Positions 4,432 through 34,881 are shown, counted from the stretch's first letter. The stretch is 37,079 bases of DNA from a virus (IMGVR_UViG_3300032087_002697:1-37079); one strand, 5' to 3'. Notes: generated by a model not told the origin, from the letters alone. A program made the numbers and translations.

Positions 4432-5373
4432 TCAATCTTTAACGGTCATCATCGAATCATAGGCTTTAACCTTGAGATCCGACAATCTTTGTAGCTCCTC
4501 ACTTCTGCGAAGCACCTTGAAAGCTAGGTTTTCAACAGAAAATTGACCTGCGCCCTCAAGCCCTGTTTTACGCATGTTCCGTATCTTTGCCTTTAATCGG
4601 TCAATTGCGTCTAATACTTTATCTTCTTCGCCCTCGTCCATCATTCTCTGGATATCATCGATTCTATCTGAAATATCTTGGGCTTTCTTCTCGATGTTTG
4701 CATAGTCGATACTGGCTGCTTCTGGTTTGGGCTCCGTAAGCCACTTATCGTCTTTGACTGAGTAAACACCAGTTGAAAGGTGCGGTTCGTTTGTATCTTG
4801 GAAGTAAATTTCTACTTCATAATCGCTCATGTAAATATCATGAGTGTTGTTCCAATTGGTTTGGAGGTTCTTAAAAAACTGAGCTACAAGCTCTTCATTC
4901 TCGTCCACCTTTGTGAAGTCGAGTAAGATGTGCAAGTCAACATCAGAATACTTTGACCAATTGTAGTTTGCCAAAGAGCCGGTTAAAGTTATGTCTTCGA
5001 CGTCTAAATCAAACGGAAGATCGATAAGAAAGTCTTTTACAATTTTTAGAAGGGCTTCCCTAACCTCTGGTTTAATTTTGTTGTCTTCCCAGATTGTTGG
5101 TTCAAGCTCATCATTCACCTCAAAAGATTTCAATGCTTTCTGGCTTACCTTTTCTTGCAAGCCCTCAAACCTAAGCTTTGACGTGCCAAACCTTTTAATT
5201 TTACCAGTATACGGTGGACCACTCGCCTTGTTTTTGATGCCGCCTGAGGTTGTATAAATATCATTTCGGCGGCGCTGTGCTTTGTAACGCTTTTGTGCAG
5301 CAGACTTAAACGGGGTTTGTTCCACCGCTTCCGTAATTCTTTGATAGTTTTTCCACTTTCGTTCAAAAGACAT
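4432..5373 (-). CDS. nucleotidyltransferase-fold protein with leader-like N-terminus
   Basis: 313 residues. The centre carries the pol-beta-type nucleotidyltransferase signature GS-x10-DVD (G132, S133, D144, D146), with a possible third acidic residue in DYEVEIYF. Such enzymes transfer NMP groups to proteins, RNA or small molecules. The first 20 residues (MSFERKWKNYQRITEAVE) are amphipathic with aromatic and Glu positions like the leaders of downstream genes. They are followed by a basic linker (residues 25-70, rich in K/R). The C-terminal third is coiled coil. It heads the leader-protein array. The target is unknown; a packaged and injected modifier of host components is an inference from the T4 precedent. 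Confidence 0.75.
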   Translation of the reverse strand: MSFERKWKNYQRITEAVEQTPFKSAAQKRYKAQRRRNDIYTTSGGIKNKASGPPYTGKIKRFGTSKLRFEGLQEKVSQKALKSFEVNDELEPTIWEDNKIKPEVREALLKIVKDFLIDLPFDLDVEDITLTGSLANYNWSKYSDVDLHILLDFTKVDENEELVAQFFKNLQTNWNNTHDIYMSDYEVEIYFQDTNEPHLSTGVYSVKDDKWLTEPKPEAASIDYANIEKKAQDISDRIDDIQRMMDEGEEDKVLDAIDRLKAKIRNMRKTGLEGAGQFSVENLAFKVLRRSEELQRLSDLKVKAYDSMMTVKD

Positions 5374-5385
5374 AATTTGTAATTC

Positions 5386-5823
5386 TCATGTTGATCTAAG
5401 TCTTGCTTTTCTTGCTGCGGCCTTCATTCGCCGCTCCTTTTCTCTTCGCTCCATGCCCCTTTTTGCGTCCTCAACCTCTTCGTCAGTAAGCATTGGGATT
5501 TCTTTAAGGTCTTCTGGCTTTATTTCGCCACTCTTGAGCGCCTTAATGAGAGGAACATAACCGTTAAGTTGCCTCATTGGTTCGTAATCACCTTCCATAG
5601 CTGCAACAAGGGCTGCATTGTGCGCCTTTTTAGCTCCTTCTGGATCCCCAACATTGAGTGCGACACGACGGGTGCCTTTAAGGTTAGATAAGACTCTTTC
5701 TTTCTCTGAGATGTCAGGCCCAGCGAAGGGGTTAAAACCCACGTCATCGCGATAAGCCTCGTTTAGAGCCATAGAAAGCTCTTCTTTAATTATTTGCTTA
5801 AGCTGTTCTTTGGTGAGTTTCAT
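5386..5823 (-). CDS. MKITK-type leader protein, basic C-terminus (145 aa)
   Basis: 145 residues. Residues 1-22 form the leader MKLTKEQLKQIIKEELSMAL, ending NE. The remainder (from AYRDDVGFNPFAGPDISE) is helical and ends in a strongly basic tail (RREKERRMKAAARKARLR) that could bind DNA. The same leader type heads five other genes here. By analogy with T4 capsid-targeting sequences it may direct the protein into the head; the cargo itself is not recognised. Confidence 0.75.
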   Translation of the reverse strand: MKLTKEQLKQIIKEELSMALNEAYRDDVGFNPFAGPDISEKERVLSNLKGTRRVALNVGDPEGAKKAHNAALVAAMEGDYEPMRQLNGYVPLIKALKSGEIKPEDLKEIPMLTDEEVEDAKRGMERREKERRMKAAARKARLRST

Positions 5824-5835
5824 AATTGTTTACCT

Positions 5836-6069
5836 CTAGTCGTCGTCAATTCTGTTGTAATCAGGATCATTTTCTAAGGTATCAAGTGCCTCTTCCAAAC
5901 GCCTAATAACAAGAAAAAGGGTGCCAGACTCGTCATCTTCGCCTTTGAGCATGTTAATGGCATCCATAATATGATATTCTACAGAACCCTCCTCGGGGCG
6001 CTGGTGAGGCAATAGGTCTTCAAATTCTTCTTTGATTAATTGTTTCAACTGAGTCTTGGTGATTTTCAT
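5836..6069 (-). CDS. MKITK-type leader protein, acidic (77 aa)
   Basis: 77 residues: leader MKITKTQLKQLIKEEFEDLL, then an acidic helical segment (EYHIMDAINMLKGEDDESG, IRRLEEALDTLENDPDYN). Its composition contrasts with the basic protein encoded just downstream. A weak GGAT-like site precedes the ATG. Cargo function unknown; candidate packaged internal protein. Confidence 0.75.
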   Translation of the reverse strand: MKITKTQLKQLIKEEFEDLLPHQRPEEGSVEYHIMDAINMLKGEDDESGTLFLVIRRLEEALDTLENDPDYNRIDDD

Positions 6070-6084
6070 AGTAATAATCCTTTA

Positions 6085-6366
6085 TCAAACTTTAATGTGA
6101 GCACTGGCAAAATTGTCAATCAAATATGGAAGAAGTAACTCTTCAAGGTCTTCGCCAAAAGTCTCTTCATCGATGTAATTGTTAGGATCTACAATCTCAA
6201 TGGTTACCGAATACTTCTTATCATCAGTTTTTCCATAATCTGAAATAATTGCCCTTACACCATTGCCTTCATAATCAATACCGGTATCATCTTCCATATC
6301 CACTTCTGCAATCTTTCCAAGTTCTTCTTGGATAATCTGCTTTAGTTGTGATTTAGTGATTTTCAT
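6085..6366 (-). CDS. MKITK-type leader protein (93 aa)
   Basis: 93 residues from the ATG at 6366, placed by a GGGAG site and by the leader MKITKSQLKQIIQEELGK. The open frame continues upstream but lacks a start signal. The cargo (residues about 25-93) is beta/alpha (GVRAIISDYG, KYSVTIEIVDPNN, LEELLLPYLIDNF), ending HIKV. A CTATTTA heptamer lies about 20 nt before the ribosome-binding site. Cargo unrecognised. Confidence 0.75.
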   Translation of the reverse strand: MKITKSQLKQIIQEELGKIAEVDMEDDTGIDYEGNGVRAIISDYGKTDDKKYSVTIEIVDPNNYIDEETFGEDLEELLLPYLIDNFASAHIKV

Positions 6367-6397
6367 TGTAAAATCTCCCATATACACAGTAAATAGT

Positions 6398-6733
6398 CTA
6401 AAATTCTTCTTGTCTTCCATCAGACCAAGTAATAATTGTTTTATTATCTGGATGTGGACTTACATGCACTTTCTTGAAGTCGCTGAGACTTTCGAAGATC
6501 GCGATAGAGCCCCTTGGAACTGGTGTTAACCAGTGGAGAACCACCTGACCCGTCGCGTATTGAACTCCCTCAATAACAACTCCTGTGCCTGAAACCCCTG
6601 TTTCGTCGTTTTGCCGACACACTGTAAAAGTCTCAATACCTCGTGGGGCAAATTTAGTGGGCGGCTTTGGCTTTAATTCCTCCGCATCCGTCACAATCTT
6701 TTCTTGTTCTACCTGTTCTAAGTCGTCTTCCAT
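6398..6733 (-). CDS. conserved hypothetical with beta-sandwich-like domain (111 aa)
   Basis: 111 residues. Residues 1-30 are acidic and Pro-rich. Residues 33-108 match a small all-beta family that I recognise from phages and actinobacteria (hallmarks VSGTGVVIEGVQY, TGQVVLHWL, and a C-terminal TIITWSDG). The start follows GGAGGATTAATTC. No catalytic residues are evident. It sits between the phosphomannomutase-like gene and the leader array. Confidence 0.7.
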   Translation of the reverse strand: MEDDLEQVEQEKIVTDAEELKPKPPTKFAPRGIETFTVCRQNDETGVSGTGVVIEGVQYATGQVVLHWLTPVPRGSIAIFESLSDFKKVHVSPHPDNKTIITWSDGRQEEF

Positions 6734-6736
6734 GAA

Positions 6737-7483
6737 TTAATCCTCCGTTCCGCCCATGCAACTAAATAGAAATCTTTTAGTGTCAAGGTAGCTTTTGACC
6801 GGAACGGCCATATCCACGGGGCGGCTTTTACTTTGATTTTGACTCAGGGCTTCAAAGAAAGGGTAATCGTTTCCACCGGGAGTAAGCCTATCCCCAAAGA
6901 AAACAATTACATGCTTTGGATTCGCTGAACGTACACGATTGTAGGCTTGCGCCTTGTTCATCCCTTTGGGGTAGATATCAATACTGATCTGCCCACCGAT
7001 TGAACAATCCAAGTAGGGCCACATGTGCAAGATTTTCTCCCTTAGAATTCTTCTTTCACCTGTCTCGGCATCCCACAATTCATACTCTTCTCTTTGTTCT
7101 TGCGTACAATTGCGACCCACAGCACTAAAATTAAGCATGCCGGGACGTTGCTCAATGTGCCCACCAGTCTTAGCGGGACAAGAAGAGTATCGAACCCATT
7201 GTTCTAAGGTGTCTAGCAGCTTCGCTGGGGCCTCGAAGTCGTTTGTGTATACCGGCACACCCTTGTGCTCGTAAACGTTCCCAGAGCAGCTAAAAACGCC
7301 CTCTACGAGTTTAAGGATTTGTTCTGGAACTTGTTGCTTTACTTTGTCCATATCGCTACCGGTAACCAAGTATACACGGTTGTTTTTGCAGAAATCTGTA
7401 AAAACCTCCTCCATATCCTCGGTCATAGCTTGACGTGCAGGTGTTAGTGTGCCGTCGATATCAAACATGTATATCTTACTCAT
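6737..7483 (-). CDS. phosphomannomutase-like HAD enzyme (eukaryotic-type PMM)
   Basis: 248 residues, the usual length of eukaryotic-type phosphomannomutases of the HAD superfamily. The nucleophile motif FDIDGTLTPAR lies at residues 7-17 (D8, D10). Later landmarks typical of PMM are VTGSD, RPGMLNFSAVGRNCT, CSIGGQISIDIYPKGMNK and VIVFFGDRLTPGGNDYPFFE. PMM interconverts mannose-6-phosphate and mannose-1-phosphate for GDP-mannose synthesis. The phosphosugar-binding residues of the cap appear present. With the isomerase-like cupin at 17003-17389 it may alter sugar-nucleotide pools for glycosylation, which is inference. Confidence 0.85.
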   Translation of the reverse strand: MSKIYMFDIDGTLTPARQAMTEDMEEVFTDFCKNNRVYLVTGSDMDKVKQQVPEQILKLVEGVFSCSGNVYEHKGVPVYTNDFEAPAKLLDTLEQWVRYSSCPAKTGGHIEQRPGMLNFSAVGRNCTQEQREEYELWDAETGERRILREKILHMWPYLDCSIGGQISIDIYPKGMNKAQAYNRVRSANPKHVIVFFGDRLTPGGNDYPFFEALSQNQSKSRPVDMAVPVKSYLDTKRFLFSCMGGTED

Positions 7484-7491
7484 TTTTTATC

Positions 7492-7701
7492 CTATGCTTC
7501 GCCAACTGGCTCTTGTGCGAGCAATAACTCGATCATAGCTTGCTCGTCCAACTTATCCAATTGCAATTTAGCTGCTTTGTCTGCTTCTTTTATCTCTTCC
7601 AGCATCTCCCAAAGAGTTTCATTCTCATCTTTAAGAATATCATTTTCTTTGATAAGATGCTGGACTATGGTAATTAACTCGTCTTTAGTTTTGTTTTTCA
7701 C
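7492..7701 (-). CDS. coiled-coil protein (69 aa)
   Basis: 69 residues from a GTG at 7701, preceded at 8 nt by GGGAG. An in-frame ATG at 7716 would begin only about 3 nt after the expected transcription start and has no ribosome-binding site, so the GTG is preferred. The protein is one long coiled coil (LIKENDILKDENETLWEML, EEIKEADKAAKLQLDKL). It is the first gene behind the promoter at 7726-7754. Function unknown. Confidence 0.65.
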   Translation of the reverse strand: MKNKTKDELITIVQHLIKENDILKDENETLWEMLEEIKEADKAAKLQLDKLDEQAMIELLLAQEPVGEA

Positions 7702-7714
7702 GGGTCGTTCTCCC

Positions 7715-7732
7715 ATATACTAAATAGTATAT
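7715..7732. promoter_or_regulatory. 18-bp perfect palindrome over the -10 and start region
   Basis: ATATACTA-AA-TAGTATAT is perfectly symmetrical and covers the -10 box (7726-7731) and expected transcription start of the promoter at 7726-7754. It could be an operator for a dimeric repressor. It could also be an incidental AT-rich overlap of TATACT with the recurrent CTATTTA motif. Confidence 0.4.
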
Positions 7733-7754
7733 CGTATCATAAATCGTTTGTCAA
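7726..7754 (-). promoter_or_regulatory. sigma70-type promoter, TTGACA-17-TATACT
   Basis: -35 TTGACA (7754-7749), 17-nt spacer, -10 TATACT (7731-7726). It lies in the gap between the serine protease gene and the coiled-coil gene and probably drives the coiled-coil protein and the PMM gene. Confidence 0.75.
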
Positions 7755-8462
7755 TCAAATTTTCAAATTTCGATCTAATTGATCAAAGTCAAGTAACCAG
7801 ATAGGCACGATATATACTACATCTTCGATGGATGTGGGGTATCCGTAAAAACCTTGACCCACCTCAATAGCCATTAAGATCCCAACTAAATTACCACTTC
7901 TTGTAAAAATAGATGAGCCTGATGCGCCATTCCATGCGTATGAGTGCAGAACTAGCAAGCCTCCCTCTGAACCGGCGATATAGCCGCGCATGGTCAATGG
8001 GCCTGTCATATTAGGAAAACCTGTGTAAACCACGTCCAAGCCCACTTTTACGTTTTTGTCTCGAATGGGCGCAAGCCTCATTGGTTTTAGTTGCTTGTGA
8101 TCTGGCACGCTTAATACTGCTATATCTTTGTCCCTGTCAAAATATACAACTTTGGCCACAGTATCAAAAAGACTAGTGGATACAACGGTAACGTTACTTG
8201 GTGACCCAAGAACGTGTGCGGAGGTTATAACGATAACCTCACCTTTGTATCTGTATAGTGTGCCAGTGCCGAAAGATAAATCGTCCTGCTGCATAGAGAA
8301 AACCTTTACAACGGCATCTCTTGTATTACCCTCTATCTGTGTAGAAGTCTTAAGTAAAATCCCCTCTCTTGCATTTGCATCTATATCACACACACCTACC
8401 GGTGTTGCGTGACATGCAACGAAGAGAAGAGATAGTATCCCCCAAATTAATACTCTCATCAT
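7755..8462 (-). CDS. secreted trypsin-like serine protease
   Basis: 235 residues. Residues 1-17 are a signal peptide (MMRVLIWGILSLLFVAC) ending in a cysteine, so the protein may be a lipoprotein, although F at -3 is not the classical lipobox. The trypsin/HtrA-like triad is visible: H83 in VITSAHVLG, D113 in DIAVLSV, S181 in NGASGSS. No PDZ domain follows. A secreted protease encoded among head-cargo genes could act in the periplasm, for example on envelope proteins or in superinfection exclusion; this is inference. The ribosome-binding site AGGGGGG can be masked by an upstream hairpin (8468-8488). Confidence 0.8.
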   Translation of the reverse strand: MMRVLIWGILSLLFVACHATPVGVCDIDANAREGILLKTSTQIEGNTRDAVVKVFSMQQDDLSFGTGTLYRYKGEVIVITSAHVLGSPSNVTVVSTSLFDTVAKVVYFDRDKDIAVLSVPDHKQLKPMRLAPIRDKNVKVGLDVVYTGFPNMTGPLTMRGYIAGSEGGLLVLHSYAWNGASGSSIFTRSGNLVGILMAIEVGQGFYGYPTSIEDVVYIVPIWLLDFDQLDRNLKI

Positions 8463-8467
8463 ATCTA

Positions 8468-8488
8468 CCCCCCTGTAGTAACTAGGGG
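8468..8488 (-). promoter_or_regulatory. hairpin that can mask the ribosome-binding site of the protease gene
   Basis: On the minus strand CCCCT (8488-8484) pairs with AGGGG (8474-8470), with TAG/CTA stacking inside the loop. The 3' arm is the ribosome-binding site AGGGGGG itself, 5-7 nt before the start codon. Translation may therefore depend on opening of the hairpin. Confidence 0.45.
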
Positions 8489-8506
8489 CTATTATGCGAA
8501 AAGCAG

Positions 8507-9103
8507 TTAGTTTACGAGAGTCAACGCACCTTCGTGGGCTTTGTATATATCAAATTTGACATCTGGGCGCTCTTTGCTAGCCGCAATCATGTGCCTTAGA
8601 TTCTTATCTGAGTCATCGAGGAACTCCACAGACTCGAAATTGCGGTACCTATCCAGCACTTGAAGAGTAAACGAGCCTTTATTTTCGCCTGCCAATCCTT
8701 TAATTAATAACTCGGTTGTATCAATTGGAGGCTCAAGGCTTTGGAGATATCGCTGAATGTCGTCCTCAGAGTTAGGATCTCGCGCTGTTAGAATCATAAC
8801 CTGCACTCTTGGGTCAGCTATCCTATCTCTTAGCATCTTTACTATGGGCTTAATCTCCATGGGTGCCTGTACTTCATCGTATGAAGTAAAGTCTAAATTA
8901 TAAAGACCTGATTCTTTCGCTTCGTCCTGCTCTTCTTGAGAATAAATTCTTTTAACAAACTCTCCTGTTTCTTTATCGAAGGCATCAGCAAAAGAAGTTG
9001 TAAATGCAATTGTCTCGTCAAAGTCAAAGATAGACAGCATCATAGAATCCTGTATCTCTACTTCTTTTAAATACCTACGCCAGTTTTCAAGTAGGAGTTT
9101 CAT
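8507..9103 (-). CDS. HAD-superfamily phosphatase with MKLLLENW leader
   Basis: 198 residues from the ATG at 9103, which begins the leader MKLLLENWRRYLKEVE. Residues 24-35 hold the HAD motif IFDFDETIAFT (nucleophile D27, acid D29). Motif II is MILTAR and motif IV is FLDDSDKN. This resembles the phosphatase half of polynucleotide kinase-type and related phage HAD proteins. An open frame upstream of the leader is ignored because the leader position is conserved. It overlaps the previous gene by 4 nt. Candidate injected phosphatase; substrate unknown. Confidence 0.8.
   Translation of the reverse strand: MKLLLENWRRYLKEVEIQDSMMLSIFDFDETIAFTTSFADAFDKETGEFVKRIYSQEEQDEAKESGLYNLDFTSYDEVQAPMEIKPIVKMLRDRIADPRVQVMILTARDPNSEDDIQRYLQSLEPPIDTTELLIKGLAGENKGSFTLQVLDRYRNFESVEFLDDSDKNLRHMIAASKERPDVKFDIYKAHEGALTLVN
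9078..9103 (-). repeat. leader-coding DNA repeat, type 1a copy 1
   Basis: 26 nt coding MKLLLENWR, identical to 9542-9567. DNA-level identity between leaders of otherwise unrelated genes implies recent duplication or recombination. Confidence 0.8.
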
Positions 9104-9567
9104 TCTCCTTCTTCCTTCTCGCAAATGTCTTGGGTTCCAAACTTTTGGGTGCCGTTCTCACCACAAGTGATTCTATCGGCAATGTATTCATATTCTTCTT
9201 GTCTATTATACTTCTTCAGAATATCTCTTACTTTCCTTTGAAGTTCTCTATTGTGATCGGCGTGCTGAGCAAGCAGCCAAAGATTCTGAAAGTCCTTGTC
9301 TTCAAACTTATCAAAGTCTTCGTCGGATAATGAGTTGAATAAAGATTCATATTTCTTTTGTCTCGCGGCATCGTTGAAAAGATCGTCTGTTGTTGTGCCG
9401 TGCTCTTTGGCGAACTCGGCAGCCAACTCTTTGGAAAAGCCACCTTTCTCTTTCATTGTAGCGGCCCACTTGTTTCTCAAATCCTGATCCGCGTCTCTCA
9501 AACTTTGTAGCGTTTGAGAGATATTCTCATTTAGATACTTTCGCCAGTTTTCAAGTAGGAGTTTCAT
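9100..9567 (-). CDS. MKLLLENW-leader protein with DUF6624-like segment (155 aa)
   Basis: 155 residues: leader MKLLLENWRKYLNEN, then a helical domain. The stretch NLWLLAQHADHNRELQ (about residue 95-110) resembles the 'lwlLvQHaDxdpafQ' signature of DUF6624 proteins. The C-terminus has two Cys (DRITCGE, DICEKEEGE). The start follows directly on the stop of the next upstream gene (ATGA-type packing). No biochemical function is known; candidate packaged protein. Confidence 0.75.
   Translation of the reverse strand: MKLLLENWRKYLNENISQTLQSLRDADQDLRNKWAATMKEKGGFSKELAAEFAKEHGTTTDDLFNDAARQKKYESLFNSLSDEDFDKFEDKDFQNLWLLAQHADHNRELQRKVRDILKKYNRQEEYEYIADRITCGENGTQKFGTQDICEKEEGE
9542..9567 (-). repeat. leader-coding DNA repeat, type 1a copy 2
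   Basis: Identical over 26 nt to 9078-9103, at the 5' end of the next gene in the array. Confidence 0.8.
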
Positions 9568-9743
9568 CTGTTCACCAGTGTATTAATTTCATCTAATTTA
9601 GACGATACCCCTGTTGTAAATAAGTCAGGGATGATCGAGTGAATCAAGCACTTTGTTCCAGCCGTGAACAATAGAAAACTAATTGCCATGGCGTGACGCA
9701 TGTGCTCAAAGTAAGTTTCGCCCTGTTCTTTAAGATGGGTCAT
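9564..9743 (-). CDS. DUF6356-like small membrane protein (59 aa)
   Basis: 59 residues from the ATG at 9743, matching a small family that begins 'MTHLKExxxTYxEHMxxA' (here MTHLKEQGETYFEHMRHA). A hydrophobic helix follows (AISFLLFTAGTKCLIHSIIP), then PDLFTT. This corresponds to DUF6356, small bacterial and phage membrane proteins of unknown function. It overlaps the upstream gene by 14 nt. It is one of the few array members without a leader, so it is probably not head cargo. Confidence 0.75.
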   Translation of the reverse strand: MTHLKEQGETYFEHMRHAMAISFLLFTAGTKCLIHSIIPDLFTTGVSSKLDEINTLVNR

Positions 9744-10173
9744 TCTTTTCTTGCCATTCGTGAGATACTTTATCTTCGCTGATAGGGCCACCAGCAGCCC
9801 AAGTATAACACGCTCTAGCAGAATGACACTTAAAATGGTGCATCCAACAATAACCTAGATAACCCTCAGCATCTTCTATCGGTGCCGAAATTGGACCGGG
9901 CATACACTTTAGCATTCTAGGTGAAATATCAAAAGCAGTGCAGTTAGCACACCTTGATTTTTTCGCAACCTCTGGAGTAGTGTTCCAGTGTTCTGCGGCT
10001 CTGTCCCAGTAATCTTCATCAGCGAGGTTTAACGGGCCATACTGGATGTGCTCTGCTTTAATCGCTGAGTTACGGTTCTTTGTATTCAGCTCAAGGTCTT
10101 GGGTTGCCTTTGGGCAAACCATTTCTTTGACTTCATTTAGGAATTGTTTCCAATTTTCAAGTAGTAATTTCAT
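9730..10173 (-). CDS. MKLLLENW-leader Cys-rich protein, possible Fe-S or zinc site (147 aa)
   Basis: 147 residues: leader MKLLLENWKQFLNEVKE, then a domain that I recognise from marine phage genomes (YGPLNLADEDYWDRAAEHW). The core has CANCTAFDISP, a third Cys (MLKCMPG), GYCWMHHFKCHS and ARACYTWAAGGPI. The order CxxC...C...GxCW recalls high-potential iron-sulfur proteins, but spacing differs and extra Cys/His could instead bind zinc. Its start codon overlaps the stop of the preceding gene (TAATG). Candidate packaged metalloprotein; function unknown. Confidence 0.75.
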   Translation of the reverse strand: MKLLLENWKQFLNEVKEMVCPKATQDLELNTKNRNSAIKAEHIQYGPLNLADEDYWDRAAEHWNTTPEVAKKSRCANCTAFDISPRMLKCMPGPISAPIEDAEGYLGYCWMHHFKCHSARACYTWAAGGPISEDKVSHEWQEKNDPS

Positions 10174-10174
10174 T
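10139..10174 (-). repeat. leader-coding DNA repeat, type 1b copy 1
   Basis: 36 nt coding the start of MKLLLENWKQFLNE, identical to 10741-10776. It differs from type 1a at several silent positions. Confidence 0.8.
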
Positions 10175-10775
10175 AGTGATCGCCCTCCCCAAAAACAAAC
10201 TCTCTAAGCTCGTCGCCTTTTACAGCGGTCATACCAGCTTCAACAGTGCCCAAAGTAATTTTTCCAAGTGCTGCTTTCCCAGCAAGAGCCGCCTTAAACG
10301 CCTTATATGCACCAGCCCCAGCCGCAATTAAAAATGCTGCTACAATAAGATGAAAGATTCTGTTGGTTATTTTTTTAACCCATTGTTCATCTTTATTTGG
10401 AAATAATTTTTTAATAATAAAACTAATTGGCCTCACATACTTGTCATGTAAATTATGTGATATATCAACTAGCTTATTGCCAAAAGCTGTGAAGTCTCCC
10501 ATACCCACACCTTTCAAAGCGCGAGATAATTTGGGGACTATAAAATTTATTGTTTCGCCAATAATTTCCAACACTTGAGGAATAGCTAAAACAGCACCAG
10601 TGCCTGCTAATGCTAAAGTTCCAAGACCAATTGCCTCATCAACCTCTTCTTGTTGCGGTTCTACTTTGTTTAATGAATTTAACATTTTATTAAATGCTTG
10701 ATCCATAGTAGACTCTATAGATTCATCAGTGCTTTCATTAAGGAATTGTTTCCAATTTTCAAGTAGTAATTTCAT
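10173..10775 (-). CDS. MKLLLENW-leader membrane-active protein (200 aa)
   Basis: 200 residues: leader MKLLLENWKQFLNE, an acidic linker (to about residue 48), then hydrophobic segments. One spans residues about 50-80 (LGTLALAGTGAVLAIPQVLE, ETINFIVP), and another 130-170 (IFHLIVAAFLIAAGAGAYKA). An amphipathic KLFPNKDEQWVKKI lies between them. Head-packaged proteins with transmembrane segments could help DNA cross the inner membrane; this is inference. It is coupled to neighbours on both sides (ATGA and TAATG). Confidence 0.75.
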   Translation of the reverse strand: MKLLLENWKQFLNESTDESIESTMDQAFNKMLNSLNKVEPQQEEVDEAIGLGTLALAGTGAVLAIPQVLEIIGETINFIVPKLSRALKGVGMGDFTAFGNKLVDISHNLHDKYVRPISFIIKKLFPNKDEQWVKKITNRIFHLIVAAFLIAAGAGAYKAFKAALAGKAALGKITLGTVEAGMTAVKGDELREFVFGEGDH

Positions 10776-10776
10776 T
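10741..10776 (-). repeat. leader-coding DNA repeat, type 1b copy 2
   Basis: 36 nt identical to 10139-10174, at the start of the adjacent gene. Confidence 0.8.
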
Positions 10777-11041
10777 TCTTTTCCACCAAAACCTTTAATG
10801 TGCCCTCGCCCTTAATAATTCTGTGAAATTCATAGGCGGGTATATTATAAATAGTTCCCTCTTCCAACAAAATCGGCAATTCATCATCCATTTGCAGCTT
10901 CCAGCCGTTGGATTCAATAACTTTCACCCTTCTATCTTCCTGATCCTGATGCCAAACTAATTCCTCAGAGTTCACATCTCCTTTGAACTCTCTGAGGAAT
11001 AGCTTGCCTCCAACCTTCTTTTCAGAGAAGGGGAAGTCCAT
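10772..11041 (-). CDS. small cupin-like protein (89 aa)
   Basis: 89 residues matching a compact phage/cyanophage family: starts MDFPFSEKKVGGKLFLREF, then ELVWHQDQEDRRVKVI, WKLQMDDELPILLEEG and AYEFHRIIKGEG. The H...E/D...H pattern and strand order suggest a single cupin barrel that may bind metal. It lacks a leader. It is coupled to the neighbours by ATGA and TAATG overlaps. Function unknown. Confidence 0.8.
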   Translation of the reverse strand: MDFPFSEKKVGGKLFLREFKGDVNSEELVWHQDQEDRRVKVIESNGWKLQMDDELPILLEEGTIYNIPAYEFHRIIKGEGTLKVLVEKK

Positions 11042-12318
11042 TACCAGAACCTTCCGATACCGGGTCCAAAATCTTTATGTGATCGACAAGACCAGTATCC
11101 CGGCGTTGTCTTATCAGTCTTTTCAGCACAACGATGGCGCTTGGCATATGACTTTCGAGCATCAGGATCATTCCAATTGCCTTCAAGTCCACCTTTCTTG
11201 TCGCCATATGTAACCATCTTTATGTTACCAGTCTTAGGGTTACGAACATAAACTTTATACTTCTTGCCTGATCCACTGTTTCTGGATGGCTTGTTTAATT
11301 TAACTTCTTTGCCCTTGTACTTTGCCTCGGTTAGACTCTCATCGATAAATAGCGGGAACTCAAGAGGAACCCTTTCGCCCTCAACAATTGCCCACTCCCC
11401 AAGCTCGGAGTTTTCCAGCAAATCGCGCTCGTCATCATTTAGGACTTCATACAAGCCCTTCTTGTAGTAGTGGCGTGCTTGCTTAATTACATTAAAGAAG
11501 CAGGGCGAACCGGGACGATAGATATTTTCTGTTACAGGGATGCCGTTCTCAACGTGGTGCAATAAACCGGGCTTGAAAACTGCTCTTTGGAATTCCTCTC
11601 TAATCATCATCTCTAGATTAATTGATTCGTTCTTTTTCTTTTTCTTTCTACCGGGCTTTTGAGGGTCTGTTTTTACATAAGTTGGCTTGGCTGCGCCTGT
11701 CTTTTTAGTTTGTCCGGGGTCTTTTCTTCGTTTACGGCGACCGGCGCTGTCTCTTTCTTTTTTAGACATGCTGTCATACTTCGAGCGTGAAACGCACTTA
11801 GGAGTTGTTTTTTGACCCGGTTGTCTGGCGCATGGCTTTCCGTCATACTTTCCACCGGCTTGGACCCAACCGGGCTTTCCTCCCTTGCCTTTGGACCTTG
11901 ATTTACCAAACCAATCACGCAAGCTTTCGTTTTGCTCCTCAAGGACAGACATAATTTCTTGCATAATCATATCTTTGATCATTTCTTCATTTGTTTTTGA
12001 TTTCTGCATTCTTTTTGTCTTCCTCTTGGATGCTTCTTTTCTTTCTTCTGCGTATTCAAAAGCTCTTTTTAATCTAGCCTTTACATCTGGGTCTTTTGCA
12101 TTTTGGTAAGCTGCTCTTACTCTCTGATGGATTAAATTAATTATTTGTGACTGTCGTTTGTGCGACTTGGATTTGAAAGATGGCTTAGAGAGCGTTCTTC
12201 TGATCGCCGCAGCACTTGAGAATTCAACTGATACAGTGTCCTTAGGGTTCTCATCAGTATATAATCTACGTCCAGAGCCCTTTGGTTTCTTGCCAGTTCC
12301 TTTCTTTGGGTCACTCAT
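11041..12318 (-). CDS. three-module basic protein with internal leader-like segments (425 aa)
   Basis: 425 very basic residues that read as separate modules in tandem. Module 1 (about 1-105) is Lys/Arg-rich helix. A leader-like helix (NEEMIKDMIMQEIMSVLEE) then introduces module 2 (about 130-225): ESLRDWFGKS, KPGWVQAGGKYDGKPCARQ, SKKERDSAGRRKRRKDPG, a family common in marine phages. A second leader-like stretch (NESINLEMMIREEFQRAV) introduces module 3 (IYRPGSPCFFNVIKQARHYY...). A final domain (KKYKVYVRNPKTGNIKMVTY ... HRCAEK ... YWSCRSHK) is also a known stand-alone phage protein. Processing at the internal LxE-like sites would release several peptides, as for T4 internal proteins; not demonstrated. 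Confidence 0.75.
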   Translation of the reverse strand: MSDPKKGTGKKPKGSGRRLYTDENPKDTVSVEFSSAAAIRRTLSKPSFKSKSHKRQSQIINLIHQRVRAAYQNAKDPDVKARLKRAFEYAEERKEASKRKTKRMQKSKTNEEMIKDMIMQEIMSVLEEQNESLRDWFGKSRSKGKGGKPGWVQAGGKYDGKPCARQPGQKTTPKCVSRSKYDSMSKKERDSAGRRKRRKDPGQTKKTGAAKPTYVKTDPQKPGRKKKKKNESINLEMMIREEFQRAVFKPGLLHHVENGIPVTENIYRPGSPCFFNVIKQARHYYKKGLYEVLNDDERDLLENSELGEWAIVEGERVPLEFPLFIDESLTEAKYKGKEVKLNKPSRNSGSGKKYKVYVRNPKTGNIKMVTYGDKKGGLEGNWNDPDARKSYAKRHRCAEKTDKTTPGYWSCRSHKDFGPGIGRFW

Positions 12319-13025
12319 TTCTGCCCCTCTCCCCTGAGTCCGGTTGGTGGTAGTTCGCCGCCTGAACCTGCGCTAAACCGCCGACCAGCATCGCGGCCAA
12401 CATAGTTTCTAGGGTCATATCGCTTTGCCTTTGAGCGTATTGTCTCATTCTTTTTCTTGCCCCTGTAACAGTCCTTGATACCTTGTGATTTGCAGCTTGC
12501 CTTTTGGGTGAAGCCCATCTCGTCACAGGGTGTTCGTTTGCAGTAAGCAGGCGTCGCACCTCGACGATCTTCTTTTTCACTTATCTTTTTTTTTACGTCG
12601 ATTTCCTCACCATCTTGTAAGATATAATCCCCATTCTTATGCAGTCCAACATCAGACATGCCCTTGATTGCATCTTTAATTTCTTTCTGCTCGGCTCCAG
12701 TGCCTTTTACTAGTGCGTCCATGCCAGCGGCGCCGCCTTCGTCAATCAACACCTTGCGAATCTTTGCCTCAAGGCTCTCTTTGCCCTCGTAAAGCTCTAG
12801 CTCCTCCTTGGTGGTGCTCTTGCCCCAGTTCTTGGCTCCGACCTTCCTGCACTTCACAAGCGCTCCAGAGGCGTAAGCAGAGGGCCATACGTCGTATCTT
12901 GACTTAACCTTGTAGTAACAAGCATCACGCTTTGCCGCCTTCTTCTTTTTCTTCTTCTTTTCGTCAAGAAGGCTATCAAGTTCTTCCTTGATGATCTCTA
13001 AAAGTGTTTGCTTGGTAATTTTCAT
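12315..13025 (-). CDS. MKITK-type leader protein, multi-domain (236 aa)
   Basis: 236 residues: leader MKITKQTLLEIIKEELDSLL, a poly-Lys linker, then a small Cys domain (ACYYKVKSRYDVWPSAYASG...KCRKVGAKNW) that matches DUF5872-like phage proteins. Next comes a winged-helix-like segment (residues about 85-140: IRKVLIDEGGAAGMDALVKG, VGLHKNGDYIL). A second Cys-rich piece follows (TPAYCKRTPCDEMGF, CKSQGIKDCYRGKKK) and a Gly/Arg tail. It overlaps its neighbour by ATGA. The basic, Cys-containing modules suggest DNA-associated virion cargo. Confidence 0.75.
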   Translation of the reverse strand: MKITKQTLLEIIKEELDSLLDEKKKKKKKAAKRDACYYKVKSRYDVWPSAYASGALVKCRKVGAKNWGKSTTKEELELYEGKESLEAKIRKVLIDEGGAAGMDALVKGTGAEQKEIKDAIKGMSDVGLHKNGDYILQDGEEIDVKKKISEKEDRRGATPAYCKRTPCDEMGFTQKASCKSQGIKDCYRGKKKNETIRSKAKRYDPRNYVGRDAGRRFSAGSGGELPPTGLRGEGQK

Positions 13026-13027
13026 AA

Positions 13028-13426
13028 TCAGTCTCCAGATACTAAAATATAATCTCTGATTTTATTAAGGTAATCGGATGCTAAGGTAAGTTTGCCCATC
13101 CACCAAGACGGTAAGTCGCCCTCATCAGACATATGATCTAGGCCATGAAGAATTTGGGCTGCATCTTCCATGGCAGTCTTTAATTTACGACGTGCTGAGG
13201 CGACATCTACATGCCCGTCCTCGTTAAGGGTTTCACCCATGTTAGAGCCGATGTTTCTAGCTTGGTTGATGCGCTCGGCTCTTTCTTTTGAGTATGGACC
13301 CATGGTCTTAGCGCCTTTCTTTTTAGGATCGACATAAAACTTGCCATCCCGCTTGACAACCTTTTCGGTTACGCCATCAAGCTCTTCGCTAATTAATTGT
13401 CTAAGTTGTGACTTGGTGATTTTCAT
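13028..13426 (-). CDS. MKITK-type leader protein (132 aa)
   Basis: 132 residues: leader MKITKSQLRQLISEELDGVT, a basic linker, a second Glu-rich junction (GETLNEDGHVDV), then a helical domain. The domain is recognisable from marine phages (DVASARRKLKTAMEDAAQIL, LPSWWMGKLTLASDYLNKIR). That domain occurs as separate proteins elsewhere and has no known function. It overlaps the upstream gene's stop (ATGA). Confidence 0.8.
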   Translation of the reverse strand: MKITKSQLRQLISEELDGVTEKVVKRDGKFYVDPKKKGAKTMGPYSKERAERINQARNIGSNMGETLNEDGHVDVASARRKLKTAMEDAAQILHGLDHMSDEGDLPSWWMGKLTLASDYLNKIRDYILVSGD

Positions 13427-13752
13427 TTCTTCTTACCCTTTTTCGCCATCTTAGTTAAAGTGGCATAATAAATTGATTCGCCCTCTTTCCCATATCTGTC
13501 AGTGAAATCATCTTTTGGGACTTCTTTTTCAAGCCTTTTCAATTTTCTTTTCTCTGCTGGCTTTAATTTGCGCTCGTCCACTTCCTCTTCATCCAAGCCC
13601 TCTGCTTTGATGCAATTACGATAAGTTCGGCCAAACATCTTTTTTGTTTTACGGGTTGGGTGCGTCTTATAGCCCTTTTGGCAACGCTCTTCAATAACGC
13701 CCTCAAGTTCTTCTAAAATCATCTGTTCTAACTGTTTTCTAGTGATCTTCAT
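13423..13752 (-). CDS. MKITK-type leader protein (109 aa)
   Basis: 109 residues: leader MKITRKQLEQMILEELEGVI, a short Cys-containing basic module (RCQKGYKTHPTRKTKKMFG, NCIKAE), an acidic linker and a helical domain (KLKPAEKRKLKRLEKEVPKD, DRYGKEGESIYYATLTKMAK). The last domain is widespread as a C-terminal unit in marine phage proteins. Its ends overlap neighbours by 4 nt or abut them. Candidate DNA-binding head cargo. Confidence 0.8.
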   Translation of the reverse strand: MKITRKQLEQMILEELEGVIEERCQKGYKTHPTRKTKKMFGRTYRNCIKAEGLDEEEVDERKLKPAEKRKLKRLEKEVPKDDFTDRYGKEGESIYYATLTKMAKKGKKK

Positions 13753-13753
13753 A

Positions 13754-14197
13754 TCATTCTTTCCTGAAGGCGTCTTGTATAGCTTGCGTATACATCTTCC
13801 CTAGATTATAATTAGTTGCTTCTTCGGGATAAATCCATTCATAATCATCATGTTCGTGGCTCAATTTTAATTCACCTGCCCAATCATACACCATATAGAA
13901 CCTAGTATAACCTGAGAGGGCAAACCAGTTAGGAACATGTGATAGGACCAGACCTGTTTCCTCCTGCACTTCTCGGGATAAACCATGCTTATCGGATTCA
14001 CCCTCTTGAACGTGGCCACCGGGAAGATCCCATTCCCACGGTGATTCTTTTGATATTAATTCTTTAGAGCGTCTTAGAATAAGGATCTTTGAATCATTGA
14101 ATCCCTCTACGTCCCCAACCATGATGGCTTTTGAAACTCGACTCATATCTTCACCCTCCTTAAGAAATCGCCTCCAGCTTTCTATTGAAATTTTCAT
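13754..14197 (-). CDS. NUDIX hydrolase with leader
   Basis: 147 residues. Residues 1-15 form a leader of the second type (MKISIESWRRFLKEGED). The NUDIX box is complete: G61, E67, R75, E76, E79, E80, G82 (GHVQEGE then REVQEETGL), preceded by WEWDLPGG. NUDIX enzymes hydrolyse nucleoside diphosphates linked to another group (oxidised dNTPs, NAD, ADP-ribose, RNA caps). T4 also has a Nudix hydrolase, NudE.1, but it has no known leader. Joining the enzyme to a head leader would place it in the cell at injection. Substrate cannot be told from sequence. Confidence 0.85.
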   Translation of the reverse strand: MKISIESWRRFLKEGEDMSRVSKAIMVGDVEGFNDSKILILRRSKELISKESPWEWDLPGGHVQEGESDKHGLSREVQEETGLVLSHVPNWFALSGYTRFYMVYDWAGELKLSHEHDDYEWIYPEEATNYNLGKMYTQAIQDAFRKE

Positions 14198-16914
14198 TTG
14201 TCCAATCTTTTAAGTGATCCCTTTACAACATCAATAACCTTGACACCGGGAACAAGCTTAGACGAATTAATTTCTGGTACAAGAACTTGTGAAACATAAG
14301 TGCCGGGACGGAGCGCATCGGAGCTAGGATGGAACTTGATTCTTGCTTCAATAACCTCGCGTCCGGTTACCCTTTGGGGCTCATCATGGCCAACAACCGT
14401 AACGCCCTCGATTGCACGGATACGGTTTAGTTTTTGCTCGATACCACCACCCATACTAGGATCAACTTGAATCTTTAAGTTAACTTGGAACATTCTGGTT
14501 TCGAAACCTGTTTGTTCGTTTACTAGCTTCTTTAAAATAGCTTTTTTAATTGCTTCGCGCAATTTGGTTTCTTCAAACTGGACTGCTACTTGTCTTTTTA
14601 GCGTCCCGATAACTTGATCGTACTTCTTATTTGCAACCTTTTCTGCTGCCTTATAAAGAACATCAAGATGACTATCAACATATTTAATAAATGCTTCAAC
14701 GCGAGCAATTTCTTCTTCATCCATATCAAGCATGATTTTAATTGTAAACCTAAGGCCAACCTTGAATGTATCACCGGGCGCACCAGCAATCTCTCTACTA
14801 GGAGTTAGGAGCACCCCCAACTCTGGCGTAAACGTCATTGGCATCATTTCACGCATATCTTTTGGCTTTCTTTCAAACTTTTTATCAAATGGCAAGGGAA
14901 CTTGAGCGTTTGCAAATTTAAACGCTTCGTTTGCAAGCTTCTTAAATGTTCTTCGTACATCCGCAGTAATTTCTTCTCGGCCTGTGCCCTGCCTAAGCAT
15001 ATTACGATAAGCAGGCCCAATAAGGAACTGGTTGATCGTATCATTTTTAAACTCTGCAATTTCATAATAGCCGAGTCCACCACCGGGAACGTGAATAAGC
15101 TTATGTGTTGGAATATCCTGCGTAATATCAATTCCATCTTGTGGGTCGTCTTCGGAATAAGAAACGTTAAGGTTGGCATAGCCCTCAAAGTCATCGTCGG
15201 TAAATTTACGAACTGTTCGATCAAATGCCTCTTCTGGCAAGTAATCGTTTTCGATAAAGTATTGTCGCAAGAGGCCCCTAGCTCTATCATAGGATTCATT
15301 ATACTCGGATACAACATAATCCAAGAAAGTTTCTAGCTCTTCAACAGCATCGGCACCTCCACTTCGGAAATTAAATGTCTGTCTGTAGTCAACAGTAAAT
15401 TTATTATCGTCCTCGCTAGATTCAATTTCATTTTCGCCATAGCCATAAATATCAATTGCCTTATCCAATACGCTTTCGATTTCTTCTGCGAACTCACGTT
15501 GAGCCTGCCAAGAAGACCGGTAATCGGGCACCACCGTTCGGCCTGACTTAGTTTCCCACGCATCATCATAGGTAAACTCAAACTGCATCGTGAAGCCACC
15601 TTGAACGTAAAAAGGCACTGTTTCATCCCAGCCATCTTCGACATCAGCATAAACAGAAATGTTATCATTAACGGCTTCTTGTGTTCTTGTAACCAATCTA
15701 TTGACGTCCATTTCGGCTTGTGCTTGCTGATCTTCGGCAAATTTATCATCATAGAAATCTTCGTATTGATACTCTACCATACCAAAAATTTCTTCTGCTT
15801 GTTCTTCAAGCGGCGTATCTTTAAACAGTAAAGCAACAAGGTCGCCTATTTCGCCTTGGCCACCCTGTTCGATATCTGTGTATTGGCCACCAATACGGAT
15901 AAAATCTCCGTTTCCAATTGCTGATGGGTCGATGTTTCCTTCTTCGTTTGCCCACATATCCCGTTGATTCTGGCGTAGCCACTGGCGCACGGTTGGTAGA
16001 AAGTCTGGCACTCGCGCACCATACACCCGATCCTCTGCCACGCCAAAGTCTTCGCCGGTTTCGGGATTGAATAGTTTATAAATACGAACGCGAGCAACTG
16101 GCTCTGGTCCGTCAAGATCGATATGACTATCGCCAAATATTTCCTCTGCGTTGATTCGATCAATTAAGTTATACTGTGCAACATCTGCACCGCGCATAAG
16201 GTATGCAACCATGCCGTGCCCACGCGATTCATCGATAGCGCAGTTAAAGTGCGAAGACCCTTCGGAATGGCAAGACCGTGTAACGCCAAAGTCCGACATA
16301 CGCGCCACGTCGATTGGGTGACGTGTAATAATAACATGGGGCTTATTTGAGATATCTACTTCAAAATTGTTGAGAAACGGCTTTAAAAAGAACTTTCTAA
16401 CATTATCCATCTCGCGAAGCATGTTTTGGTTTTGTTTCCACCATGCCTTATCTTCACTAGTGCCGAACTTTTCAACCAATTTACCCAATGAAACTTTCTT
16501 TACGTCCGTAACCGTTTCACCTGCTCGCGGACCTTTAGGGATTACCTTTTTCTCTTCTTTTTTCATCATCAAAACCGGCAGTTCGGTAGGTACGGTATAC
16601 TCCCTTCCTCCTTGATCGGTCATTTTTTGATCGACAGTTTTAAATGTAAATGCTGGTTGCCAACCTCGATCAACAATTCGTTTAAACATATCGGTTGCTT
16701 GTGTAGCTAATTCAATACCAAGGGGGAATATGACCCGCATTGTTTTTTCGTCTTCAAACAAATTGTTAAACGAAAACCTTGGGCCTTGCCTGTCTGGCGT
16801 GCCGTCCGAAATATATTGCCTAACCAACTTACGAGTGGCTGTTGTTAGTTCGGATATCTTTTCTTCTTCAAGTACATTTCGCTTGAAGCCTGAAACCATT
16901 GTATGAAAGTCCAT
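14194..16914 (-). CDS. large conserved phage protein, candidate virion protein (906 aa)
   Basis: 906 residues, acidic. The N-terminus MDFHTMVSGFKRNVLEEEK is amphipathic and Glu-rich, loosely like the leaders. Residues about 190-300 hold the family hallmark VIITRHPIDVARMSDFGVTR-SCHS, then CAIDESRGHGMVAYLM and a region ending VPDFLPTVRQWLRQNQ. The hallmark recalls catalytic Ser/Cys-His arrangements but no enzyme class can be named. The C-terminal 120 residues form a ferredoxin-like domain (MFQVNLKIQVDPSMGGG, RIRAIEGVTVVG). I recognise homologs in marine phages as unassigned proteins. It follows the terminator at 16948-16980 and so needs its own promoter, which I cannot place. It heads the cargo array and overlaps the NUDIX gene by 4 nt. 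Confidence 0.7.
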   Translation of the reverse strand: MDFHTMVSGFKRNVLEEEKISELTTATRKLVRQYISDGTPDRQGPRFSFNNLFEDEKTMRVIFPLGIELATQATDMFKRIVDRGWQPAFTFKTVDQKMTDQGGREYTVPTELPVLMMKKEEKKVIPKGPRAGETVTDVKKVSLGKLVEKFGTSEDKAWWKQNQNMLREMDNVRKFFLKPFLNNFEVDISNKPHVIITRHPIDVARMSDFGVTRSCHSEGSSHFNCAIDESRGHGMVAYLMRGADVAQYNLIDRINAEEIFGDSHIDLDGPEPVARVRIYKLFNPETGEDFGVAEDRVYGARVPDFLPTVRQWLRQNQRDMWANEEGNIDPSAIGNGDFIRIGGQYTDIEQGGQGEIGDLVALLFKDTPLEEQAEEIFGMVEYQYEDFYDDKFAEDQQAQAEMDVNRLVTRTQEAVNDNISVYADVEDGWDETVPFYVQGGFTMQFEFTYDDAWETKSGRTVVPDYRSSWQAQREFAEEIESVLDKAIDIYGYGENEIESSEDDNKFTVDYRQTFNFRSGGADAVEELETFLDYVVSEYNESYDRARGLLRQYFIENDYLPEEAFDRTVRKFTDDDFEGYANLNVSYSEDDPQDGIDITQDIPTHKLIHVPGGGLGYYEIAEFKNDTINQFLIGPAYRNMLRQGTGREEITADVRRTFKKLANEAFKFANAQVPLPFDKKFERKPKDMREMMPMTFTPELGVLLTPSREIAGAPGDTFKVGLRFTIKIMLDMDEEEIARVEAFIKYVDSHLDVLYKAAEKVANKKYDQVIGTLKRQVAVQFEETKLREAIKKAILKKLVNEQTGFETRMFQVNLKIQVDPSMGGGIEQKLNRIRAIEGVTVVGHDEPQRVTGREVIEARIKFHPSSDALRPGTYVSQVLVPEINSSKLVPGVKVIDVVKGSLKRLDK

Positions 16915-18858: not shown

Positions 18859-20430
18859 TTATGTCTCCAGAATAGAATAGCCAGTCATAATCAACGTTCC
18901 GGCTGCTGACGCTGCGTTCTGCAAGGCAACCTTTGTAACCTTGACGGGATCAATAATGCCAGCCTCAATCATGTCACACTCTTTATCTTGCCCAAAATCA
19001 AAACCATTGTTACCCTCTAGTCCTTGCACAACACTTTCGATGATGTCTGGACTATGGCCTGCATTACGAGCCATTTGTCTCACCGGCTCTCTGATCGCAT
19101 CGGCTACACACTGTGCCCCAATTGCTTGATCTTGGTTGTCTACATTGACCTCCAAGTCCTTAAGAACTCGTAAGAGTGCGACACCACCACCGGGAACAAT
19201 ACCCTCCAACTGCGCCGCCTTAACTGCCTCTAGTGCGTCCTCAACCCTATGCTTCTTCTCAATCATCTCGACTGGCGTCGGAGCACCAACATTAATAATT
19301 GCTACACCGGCTGCTAAACGAGTGATCCTTTCTTGGATTCTTTCACACTCTGGGAATGTCTTGGCTTGTTCAAACTCTGCCCTAAGCTTTTCTAAACGCT
19401 CTTCTACCTCTTCATGGTTTCGAGCACCATCTACAACAGTCGTAACATGCTTTGTAATCTCGATTCTAGAACACGTTCCGAGATGCTCTAGCTGAACATC
19501 TTGAAGCTTCAGGCCAGCATTCTTAGTAACATGAGTTGCGCCTGTTGCCAAACACAAATCTGACATAATGTTTCTGCGCTCAGAGCCGTATCGCTCAATC
19601 TTAACAGCCGCAACCTTCATAGTGCCTCTAGCTGTATTCATGATTAGAGCGGCGAGAGCCTGCCCCTCGATCTCGTTTGCAACAATTACAAGTGGCTTGC
19701 CTTCGCGAGCAACTTGTTCCAAAACTGGTAGAATATCCTCTACTTTGTCCAGCTTTGAATCCACCACTAGGATTAGTGAATCTTCGTACACAACAGCACC
19801 ACGACGACCATCATTGACAAAGGCACCTGCTGCGTAACCACCGGGGAAGCTAAAACCCTCCTTCAATTCAAGGGAAGTTTCCAGCGAACCTGCTTCTTGG
19901 ATCGTGATCGACCCGTCTTTACCAACAGCCTCAACCGCGTTAGAGATCAATGTCCCAATTGCAGCATCGTTGTTTGCAGAAATAATTGCAATATGCTCAA
20001 TATCGTCCTTAGACTGCACTGGAGTCGCTAGCTCGTCCAAACGAGAACAAATCTCCTCGGTAGCCTTGTCAATACCACGCTTAATCTCTACCACACTTGA
20101 ATAATCATTAATCAAGTGCTTGTGCGCGTTCTTTAGGATTGCCCTAGAAAGAACGGTCGCTGTGGTGGTGCCATCGCCTGCGTTTGTATTTGTACGCTCT
20201 GACGCCTCCTTAATTACTTGGGCGGCTGCATCCATAAACGGATCTTCAAGCTTTACAAACCTTGAAACAGTAACACCATCCTTTGTAATGAAAGGTGGCT
20301 TGCCCTTCTCTCTCAAAAGTACATTTCGGCCCTTTGGACCAAGGGTACTGGCCACATTGTCAGCCAGCACATCAACACCTTCGATGATCTTCTTATGCAA
20401 AGAAGGACCATCATCGTATTCTCTATGCAA
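18859..20430 (-). CDS. groEL: phage GroEL-type chaperonin
   Basis: 523 residues, only slightly shorter than bacterial GroEL. Clear features are STLGPKGRNVLLREK (residues 28-42), TKDGVTV, the ATPase loop GDGTTTAT (85-92), the apical domain (about 190-370), RITRLAAGVAIINVG, and the C-terminal GFDFGQ and ALQNAASAAGTLIMT. The flexible GGM tail of bacterial GroEL is absent, as in other phage chaperonins. Phage GroELs help fold virion proteins and some work without a GroES partner. No GroES-like gene is visible in this window. A perfect sigma70 promoter lies just upstream, so it is probably made strongly and early. Confidence 0.97.
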   Translation of the reverse strand: MHREYDDGPSLHKKIIEGVDVLADNVASTLGPKGRNVLLREKGKPPFITKDGVTVSRFVKLEDPFMDAAAQVIKEASERTNTNAGDGTTTATVLSRAILKNAHKHLINDYSSVVEIKRGIDKATEEICSRLDELATPVQSKDDIEHIAIISANNDAAIGTLISNAVEAVGKDGSITIQEAGSLETSLELKEGFSFPGGYAAGAFVNDGRRGAVVYEDSLILVVDSKLDKVEDILPVLEQVAREGKPLVIVANEIEGQALAALIMNTARGTMKVAAVKIERYGSERRNIMSDLCLATGATHVTKNAGLKLQDVQLEHLGTCSRIEITKHVTTVVDGARNHEEVEERLEKLRAEFEQAKTFPECERIQERITRLAAGVAIINVGAPTPVEMIEKKHRVEDALEAVKAAQLEGIVPGGGVALLRVLKDLEVNVDNQDQAIGAQCVADAIREPVRQMARNAGHSPDIIESVVQGLEGNNGFDFGQDKECDMIEAGIIDPVKVTKVALQNAASAAGTLIMTGYSILET

Positions 20431-34543: not shown

Positions 34544-34881
34544 GATGATTTAACCAACTTTTGGATCTGAAGGCGGATCTTATCATATTGACTGCGTAAG
34601 ATATCGACCTCTCTGTGGAGAACTTCGATCCTGCCCTCGCTGGTCGAGCCAAACTTCATCAAGTCGTCACAACCTCCGATAAACTTGTTTCCCAAAAATA
34701 CCACTGGGACTGTTGTTTGACCAGTATCTTCAATAATCATCTGGCGCAAGTTGTCATCCTTCGACACCTCAATTGTGTGTAGACTAGCACCTAGTTCGTT
34801 CGTTACATAGTCTCGCGCTTTAATACAATAAGGGCATGTGTCCTTGATGTACATCTTAAAGACCGTTTCTTCAGTTCGCAT
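34540..34881 (-). CDS. glutaredoxin with C-terminal coiled coil
   Basis: 113 residues. The thioredoxin-fold glutaredoxin domain (1-75) has the redox motif CPYC (C16, C19), the cis-Pro TVPVVF and the glutathione-site GGCDD. A helical extension (LHREVDILRSQYDKIRLQIQ) of about 30 residues is added. T4-like phages use glutaredoxin/thioredoxin (NrdC) to reduce ribonucleotide reductase; no reductase gene lies in this window. It overlaps the previous gene by 11 nt. Confidence 0.9.
   Translation of the reverse strand: MRTEETVFKMYIKDTCPYCIKARDYVTNELGASLHTIEVSKDDNLRQMIIEDTGQTTVPVVFLGNKFIGGCDDLMKFGSTSEGRIEVLHREVDILRSQYDKIRLQIQKLVKSS

Follow-up and report, generated by a model that had tools for sequence, protein, structure and literature searches.

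Internal proteins that share a packaging leader and are otherwise unrelated are already known from the T-even phages (PMC12373910, PMC3012670). At least 10 have been reported, the leader is the sole homology among them, and T-even internal proteins block restriction enzymes (PMC12373910). Within the capsid-targeting sequence (CTS) of phage T4, MKTYQEFIAE, residues 4 and 7 serve targeting and residues 8 and 10 processing; the T4 protease gp21 cleaves after L/I-x-E, the core proteins are likewise cleaved at L-x-E sites, and C-terminal processing of Alt is also known (PMC9026906). According to the passages cited, head proteins of phiKZ-like phages (e.g. SPN3US) are also proteolytically processed and many are ejected (PMC5694885, PMC10052503), but these phages belong to another lineage with a gp245-type protease, and the likeness is drawn from published descriptions. 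Enzymes listed in the virions of cyanophages S-SCSM1 and S-CREM2 (NMNAT/cytidylyltransferase, SAM hydrolase, APH kinase) start MK.F..FL.E/ (a slash marks the predicted cut throughout), whereas the relevant passages of the papers describing them treat them as possible cargo or contaminants, without mention of a targeting leader.

The window analyzed here is a 37,079-base IMG/VR record, a viral genome fragment from an uncultured T4-like phage. It contains a gene array (Table 1) that, with a probability we put at roughly 0.83, is an enlarged T4-type capsid-targeting system, loading enzymes and basic proteins into the head, trimming the tag and probably injecting them. The twelve leader-bearing genes of the original prediction are all borne out, 12 of 12 on the minus strand: four with leader A (MKLLLENWR.[YF][LI].E in the window), one with a close variant, six with leader B (MKITKSQLKQIIKEEL) and one with a looser form, the variant and the looser form falling on the NUDIX and nucleotidyltransferase genes as had been claimed. 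The array had been drawn from 4432 to 16914; leaders do occur across 4432-14197, but the 906-aa gene at its end lacks a canonical one. Likewise, the leader B formula proposed for six genes is present, but gene 13423-13752 departs slightly from it. The looser leader has an I-T-E/A site at its end and is missed by the T4-derived motif described below. Bodies after the leaders are unrelated, again as predicted, with Pfam recognizing the nucleotidyltransferase, NUDIX and DUF2608 (HAD-like, the FDFDETIAF protein) and giving nothing convincing for the others.

Table 1. Leaders and other features of the array in the window (leader or gene coordinates, counted from the first base)
Feature	Position	Strand	Gene and product
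Looser leader MSFERKWKNYQRITE/A (MSFERKWKNY)	5329..5373	-	4432-5373, nucleotidyltransferase
Leader B	5779..5823	-	5386-5823
Leader B	6025..6069	-	5836-6069
Leader B	6322..6366	-	6085-6366, start is an internal ATG of ORF 6085-6420
Leader A MKLLLENWRRYLKE	9062..9103	-	8507-9103, HAD-like/DUF2608; body family n=26
Leader A MKLLLENWRKYLNE	9526..9567	-	9100-9567, 155 aa, body without recognized family
Leader A MKLLLENWKQFLNE	10132..10173	-	9730-10173, Cys-rich protein
Leader A MKLLLENWKQFLNE	10734..10775	-	10173-10775, hydrophobic protein
89-aa untagged protein	10772..11041	-	adjoins module gene 11041-12318
425-aa basic Cys-module protein (phrog_727)	11041..12318	-	no N-terminal leader
Leader B	12981..13025	-	12315-13025, body with basic Cys module (phrog_727)
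Leader B	13382..13426	-	13028-13426
Leader B MKITRKQLEQMILEE	13708..13752	-	13423-13752, basic Cys module
Leader A variant MKISIESWRRFLKE (MKISIESW)	14156..14197	-	13754-14197, NUDIX hydrolase; body family n=12
906-aa 'HPID' family protein	14194..16914	-	no canonical tag in the window copy

Genes without a leader within the reported range are those at 6398, 6737, 7492, 7755, 10772 and 11041. The 425-aa basic Cys-module protein has internal leader-like stretches and L-x-E sites at its module borders (e.g. SLTE/AKYKGKEV), and its pairing with the 89-aa gene is kept in the cultured methylophage Melnitz. Melnitz also encodes a 651-aa protein (L356 4573-6525) that starts MKKFSEIIE/A and has an NMNAT domain fused to basic Cys modules like those of the window. 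The gene at 7755-8462, inside the array, encodes a trypsin-like protease that lacks a capsid leader and whose N-terminus has a signal-like stretch (MRVLIWGILSLLFVACHA). Neighboring genes have near-identical leader DNA in two pairs (9730-10775 and 8507-9567), which suggests that leaders may have spread through local copying or recombination.

Pattern scans of IMG/VR viral contigs for leaders A and B, combined with a tabulation of the attached domains as the original prediction had proposed, found both leaders to be widespread and on many bodies; all counts cover the matches listed. Among these, at least 594 leader proteins were collected on at least 355 body families (BLAST), at least 115 with leader A and at least 245 with leader B, and at least five families carry leader A in one phage and leader B in another. 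A relative of the leader B body at 12315-13025 bears leader A in L212. When one representative of each body family is aligned, the alignment holds over the leader alone. Outside the searched letters, leader A (MKLLLENWR.[YF][LIV].E) has [LIV] at position 12 in about 90% and E14 in 81% of the matches listed, after which conservation stops, and in 104 leader A proteins from different body families only M1, K2, E6, W8 and E14 reach 90% or more. Positions 12 and 14, which lie outside the search pattern, form [LI]-x-E, found in 45 of 45 cases in the Cys-rich family with a relaxed pattern. Leader B frequently runs on into a second L..VL.E at 16-22. The leaders are 14 (A) and about 15-22 (B) residues long, with the body starting after them, as compared with 10-19 residues for a T4-type CTS; AlphaFold models residues 2-17 as a low-confidence helix.

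Recognizable cargo includes NUDIX, zeta-toxin-like and AAA kinases, protein kinase, SET, exonuclease, GNAT, a TseH-like domain and poly(A) polymerase or tRNA nucleotidyltransferase. The majority of leader bodies match no described family, and Pfam searches of leader B bodies came back mostly empty. In 84,980 prokaryote genomes, the leader A pattern matched 26 times, always in chance frames that do not continue as a leader, and no true leader A was found by this pattern search. Queries of 20-aa leaders gave no tblastn matches in cultured phages, the probable reason being that the leaders of cultured relatives are spelled differently. Elsewhere in the window, a 288-aa acidic, Glu-rich protein (24215-25081) starts MSKKPLLNESTVRQFMKFANL...FVNE/A, and L141 has one similar N-terminus (MKKALNESTIRKFMKLANIEGLSENFVEK); this protein might represent a third kind of leader or else belong to the core.

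To compare the leaders with T4, we used a motif derived from the T4 CTS, M[KR]x(1-6)-Phi-x-x-Phi-[LIV]-x-E, which was set before counting but after the leaders had been seen. It matches 12 of 61 ORFs in the window versus 0.43 expected from shuffled N-termini (P ~ 6e-14), one of the twelve, at 34871, probably being a chance match. Eight long relatives have 5-16 matching proteins each versus about one expected, per-genome counts that are not unbiased because the relatives were found via the leader patterns. In T4 itself the motif matches IPII, IPIII, gp61.1 and one other protein, and it has no match in lambda or T7. T4 gp61.1 (L352 18966-19130) is a 54-aa protein annotated as hypothetical that starts MKTFKEFIKE/D, and is a possible unrecognized internal protein. 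Leader A, leader B and the T4 CTS have a common register, hydrophobic-x-x-hydrophobic-[LI]-x-E (Y4..F7 I8.E10 in T4, W8..Y11 L12.E14 in A, L8..I11 I12.E14 in B), so that hydrophobic or aromatic residues in the leaders occupy the equivalents of T4 positions 4 and 7. This common register could be convergence, and we do not claim literal descent from the T4 CTS.

The Cys-rich protein at 9730-10173, with at least 596 relatives, shows how leaders vary on a single body. Among 78 distinct N-termini of this family, about 50 begin with leader A or something close to it and one, in L407, with leader B. A few open with a different CTS-like sequence (e.g. MSKLYTFDQFLLE), and about 20 are leaderless; because the last make up about a quarter, the body evidently also works without a leader. 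A tree of the body alone, built on few columns, requires 12 leader changes by parsimony, at least three of them across well supported branches. Taken together, the shared body families, these N-termini and the tree show that a single body can exchange, acquire and lose its leader. The AlphaFold model of the family is poor (mean pLDDT 50).

Relatives of the 906-aa HPID protein, none of which was found with peptide patterns, were recovered by local tblastn. They have N-terminal leaders in L120 and L388 and C-terminal tags in others, and many end in ...[LIT]-x-E/xLVKTWKxFLNS, the core of leader A at the opposite end with the cleavage site placed between body and tag. In a scan of 5,714 proteins, 46 had such C-terminal tag ends versus 1.25 expected, mostly in the HPID family, counts that are not independent because the proteins are related to each other. 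Directly before the C-terminal tag, 26 of 30 HPID proteins have [LIVMT]-x-E versus a background of 17%; the window's 906-aa copy lacks a C-terminal tag end. An Alt-like ADP-ribosyltransferase role considered for the 906-aa protein is not supported, and we assign the family to no enzyme class because its AlphaFold model (pLDDT 68) matched nothing in the PDB at an E value under 0.001. A separate Cas9-like protein, gp12 of S-CREM2 (L475 4705-7314), which the S-CREM2 virion table lists, is CTS-like at both ends, with RFASFMAE/A near its N-terminus and TFRDFLN at its extreme C-terminus.

We found no gp21-family prohead protease (PF03420) and recognized no head or capsid genes in the window, a 37-kb fragment. 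PF03420 is present in 14 of 29 leader contigs, with none of the eight that reach 180 kb or more lacking it. Of 14 further contigs 8 have it, and these 8 include most of the long ones; the occurrence of gp23 across leader contigs resembles that of gp21. Compared with the leader-phage versions, the polymerase, IMP dehydrogenase, chaperonin and dUTPase of the window mostly show 55-69% identity. The chaperonin (18859-20430) is a 523-aa GroEL-like protein of group I, and several relatives have copies 57-60% identical to it. Aligned to LTE65 of T4 gp23, the gp23 maturation site reads L-[RK]-E in each of the 12 relatives compared, an alignment by which the L/I-x-E specificity of the protease appears to be retained in the lineage. 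Of 16 gp21 loci, 8 have leader-type genes adjoining gp21, and the enrichment of such genes there is only modest (10 versus 4.1, P = 0.01). In L242-L253 a small gene downstream of gp21 (MNKSDLKKLIKPIVKECINEVLLEEG) resembles leader B, and may encode a core protein from which leader B originated. A ClpP-like protease in the window (23085-23753) matches the head maturation protease family phrog_94 (E 9e-26), in a lineage that also has gp21.

A link to virions comes from cyanophage mass spectrometry, and from a leader, MK.F..FL.E, that is similar but not identical to A and B, in four proteins plus one. Table 3 of the S-CREM2 report gives 52 of 219 proteins as detected in virions (PMC10665884). The T4-derived motif, set before S-CREM2 was examined, has four matches there (SAM hydrolase, APH kinase, cytidylyltransferase and one small protein without known function), and by that table all four were detected (P = 0.003). 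The NMNAT of S-SCSM1, which the relevant passage of its report places in virions by mass spectrometry (PMC9602691), starts MKSFLQFLKE/A; one of the two motif matches in this phage is annotated as a virion protein, and a multi-module relative of the window's 425-aa basic Cys protein is also so labeled. The cyanophage authors themselves, in the passages cited, allow that enzymes in CsCl preparations may be contaminants. The NMNAT leader is present in P-SSM2, P-RSM4, S-ShM2 and S-N03 and absent from Salmonella phage PHA46 and cyanophage S-H9-2.

The parallel with T4 internal proteins in the original prediction therefore draws support from the register, from gp21 and gp23 in the lineage, from leader swapping and from the cyanophage virion enzymes. 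Like the T-even CTS (IPI-IPIII, Alt; gp21), the leaders are short putative N-terminal propeptides with an [LI]-x-E end, a hydrophobic register and unrelated bodies, in a lineage with a gp21-family protease and gp23. Unlike it, they are spelled MKLLLENWRKYLNE and MKITKSQLKQIIKEEL rather than MKTYQEFIAE, and one genome can encode from several to about 20 proteins of the leader type. They are attached to hundreds of body families, enzymes among them, come as two tags that can replace each other, and also have a C-terminal form. On the T4 model, leaders A and B would be short helices at the N-terminus that attach to the core of the prohead while the head is assembled, through their hydrophobic face if T4 genetics is a guide, and that end in an [LI]-x-E site for a gp21-type prohead protease. 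Once the shell closes, the protease would cleave behind the Glu and release the attached enzyme or basic protein within the head, and this cargo would be ejected with the DNA and act before phage gene expression. We infer by this analogy both that proteins with leader A or B reside in virions and that the window's own proteins undergo core binding, cleavage and injection; an early role of the cargo against host defense or in host take-over would be a natural guess.

An explanation that keeps prohead targeting but dispenses with delivery is that the proteins are core, scaffold or other structural parts of the head, degraded or kept there. Such parts would suit the leader-type genes flanking gp21 and the L-x-E cleavage of T4 core proteins (PMC9026906). 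We nevertheless consider this unlikely, since the recognizable bodies are enzymes or effectors (NUDIX, kinase, zeta-toxin-like, tRNA nucleotidyltransferase, SET, exonuclease), differ between phages (at least 355 families among the matches listed) and also occur leaderless, unlike structural parts. That the leaders instead direct proteins elsewhere, for example to a membrane or to a phage compartment within the cell, or serve to bring in a chaperone, L-x-E being a mere helix end, is quite improbable: amphipathic helices serve many uses and AlphaFold offers a low-confidence helix here, but the Phi-x-x-Phi-[LI]-x-E register equals that of the T4 CTS, the leader phages encode gp21, the four S-CREM2 motif proteins are in the published virion list, and the C-terminal tags place the site between body and tag.

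It is highly improbable that the processing enzyme is the ClpP-like protease in place of gp21, despite its match to a head maturation family, as its relatives occur in a genome (G004) that has gp21 too and the L-x-E site is retained in gp23 of the lineage. L-x-E specificity is not a known trait of ClpP-type proteases. Scarcely credible is an origin of the leaders as recent duplications of one gene start, or as a translation-enhancing N-terminus without targeting function. The adjacent window genes at 9730 and 10173 do have nearly equal leader DNA, but across loci the DNA of leader A is about as similar between loci (70%) as within them (72%) and uses many synonymous codons, which shows conservation as protein, and a translation leader would not predict an L-x-E end or C-terminal tags.

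Beyond the capsid-targeting array of the window, we lean slightly toward a wider reading in which marine T4-like phages have a general protein-delivery system, where interchangeable N- or C-terminal Phi-x-x-Phi-[LI] tags with an L-x-E release site bring hundreds of enzymes and effectors into the head, and the injected set could be read from the genome; the two tags may differ in the core partner that they bind or in when they are loaded. As far as the open-access literature shows, what is new is that marine T4-like phages have two further tag families, that these replace one another on a single body, that the cargo is so large and so rich in enzymes, and that a C-terminal version of the tag exists; in that literature we found no paper with the leader strings, and none joining capsid targeting sequence, phage and metagenomes.

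If the capsid-targeting reading is true, the tags would be a sequence rule for picking from metagenomes the cargo that abundant, uncultured phages of the ocean inject as infection begins, and would be new means for loading proteins into phage heads. The reading would tie the Cys-rich, HPID and basic Cys-module families to the virion, suggest that NUDIX, kinase, zeta-toxin-like, tRNA-modifying and methyltransferase proteins act early, and account for the NMNAT, SAM hydrolase and kinases in cyanophage virions.
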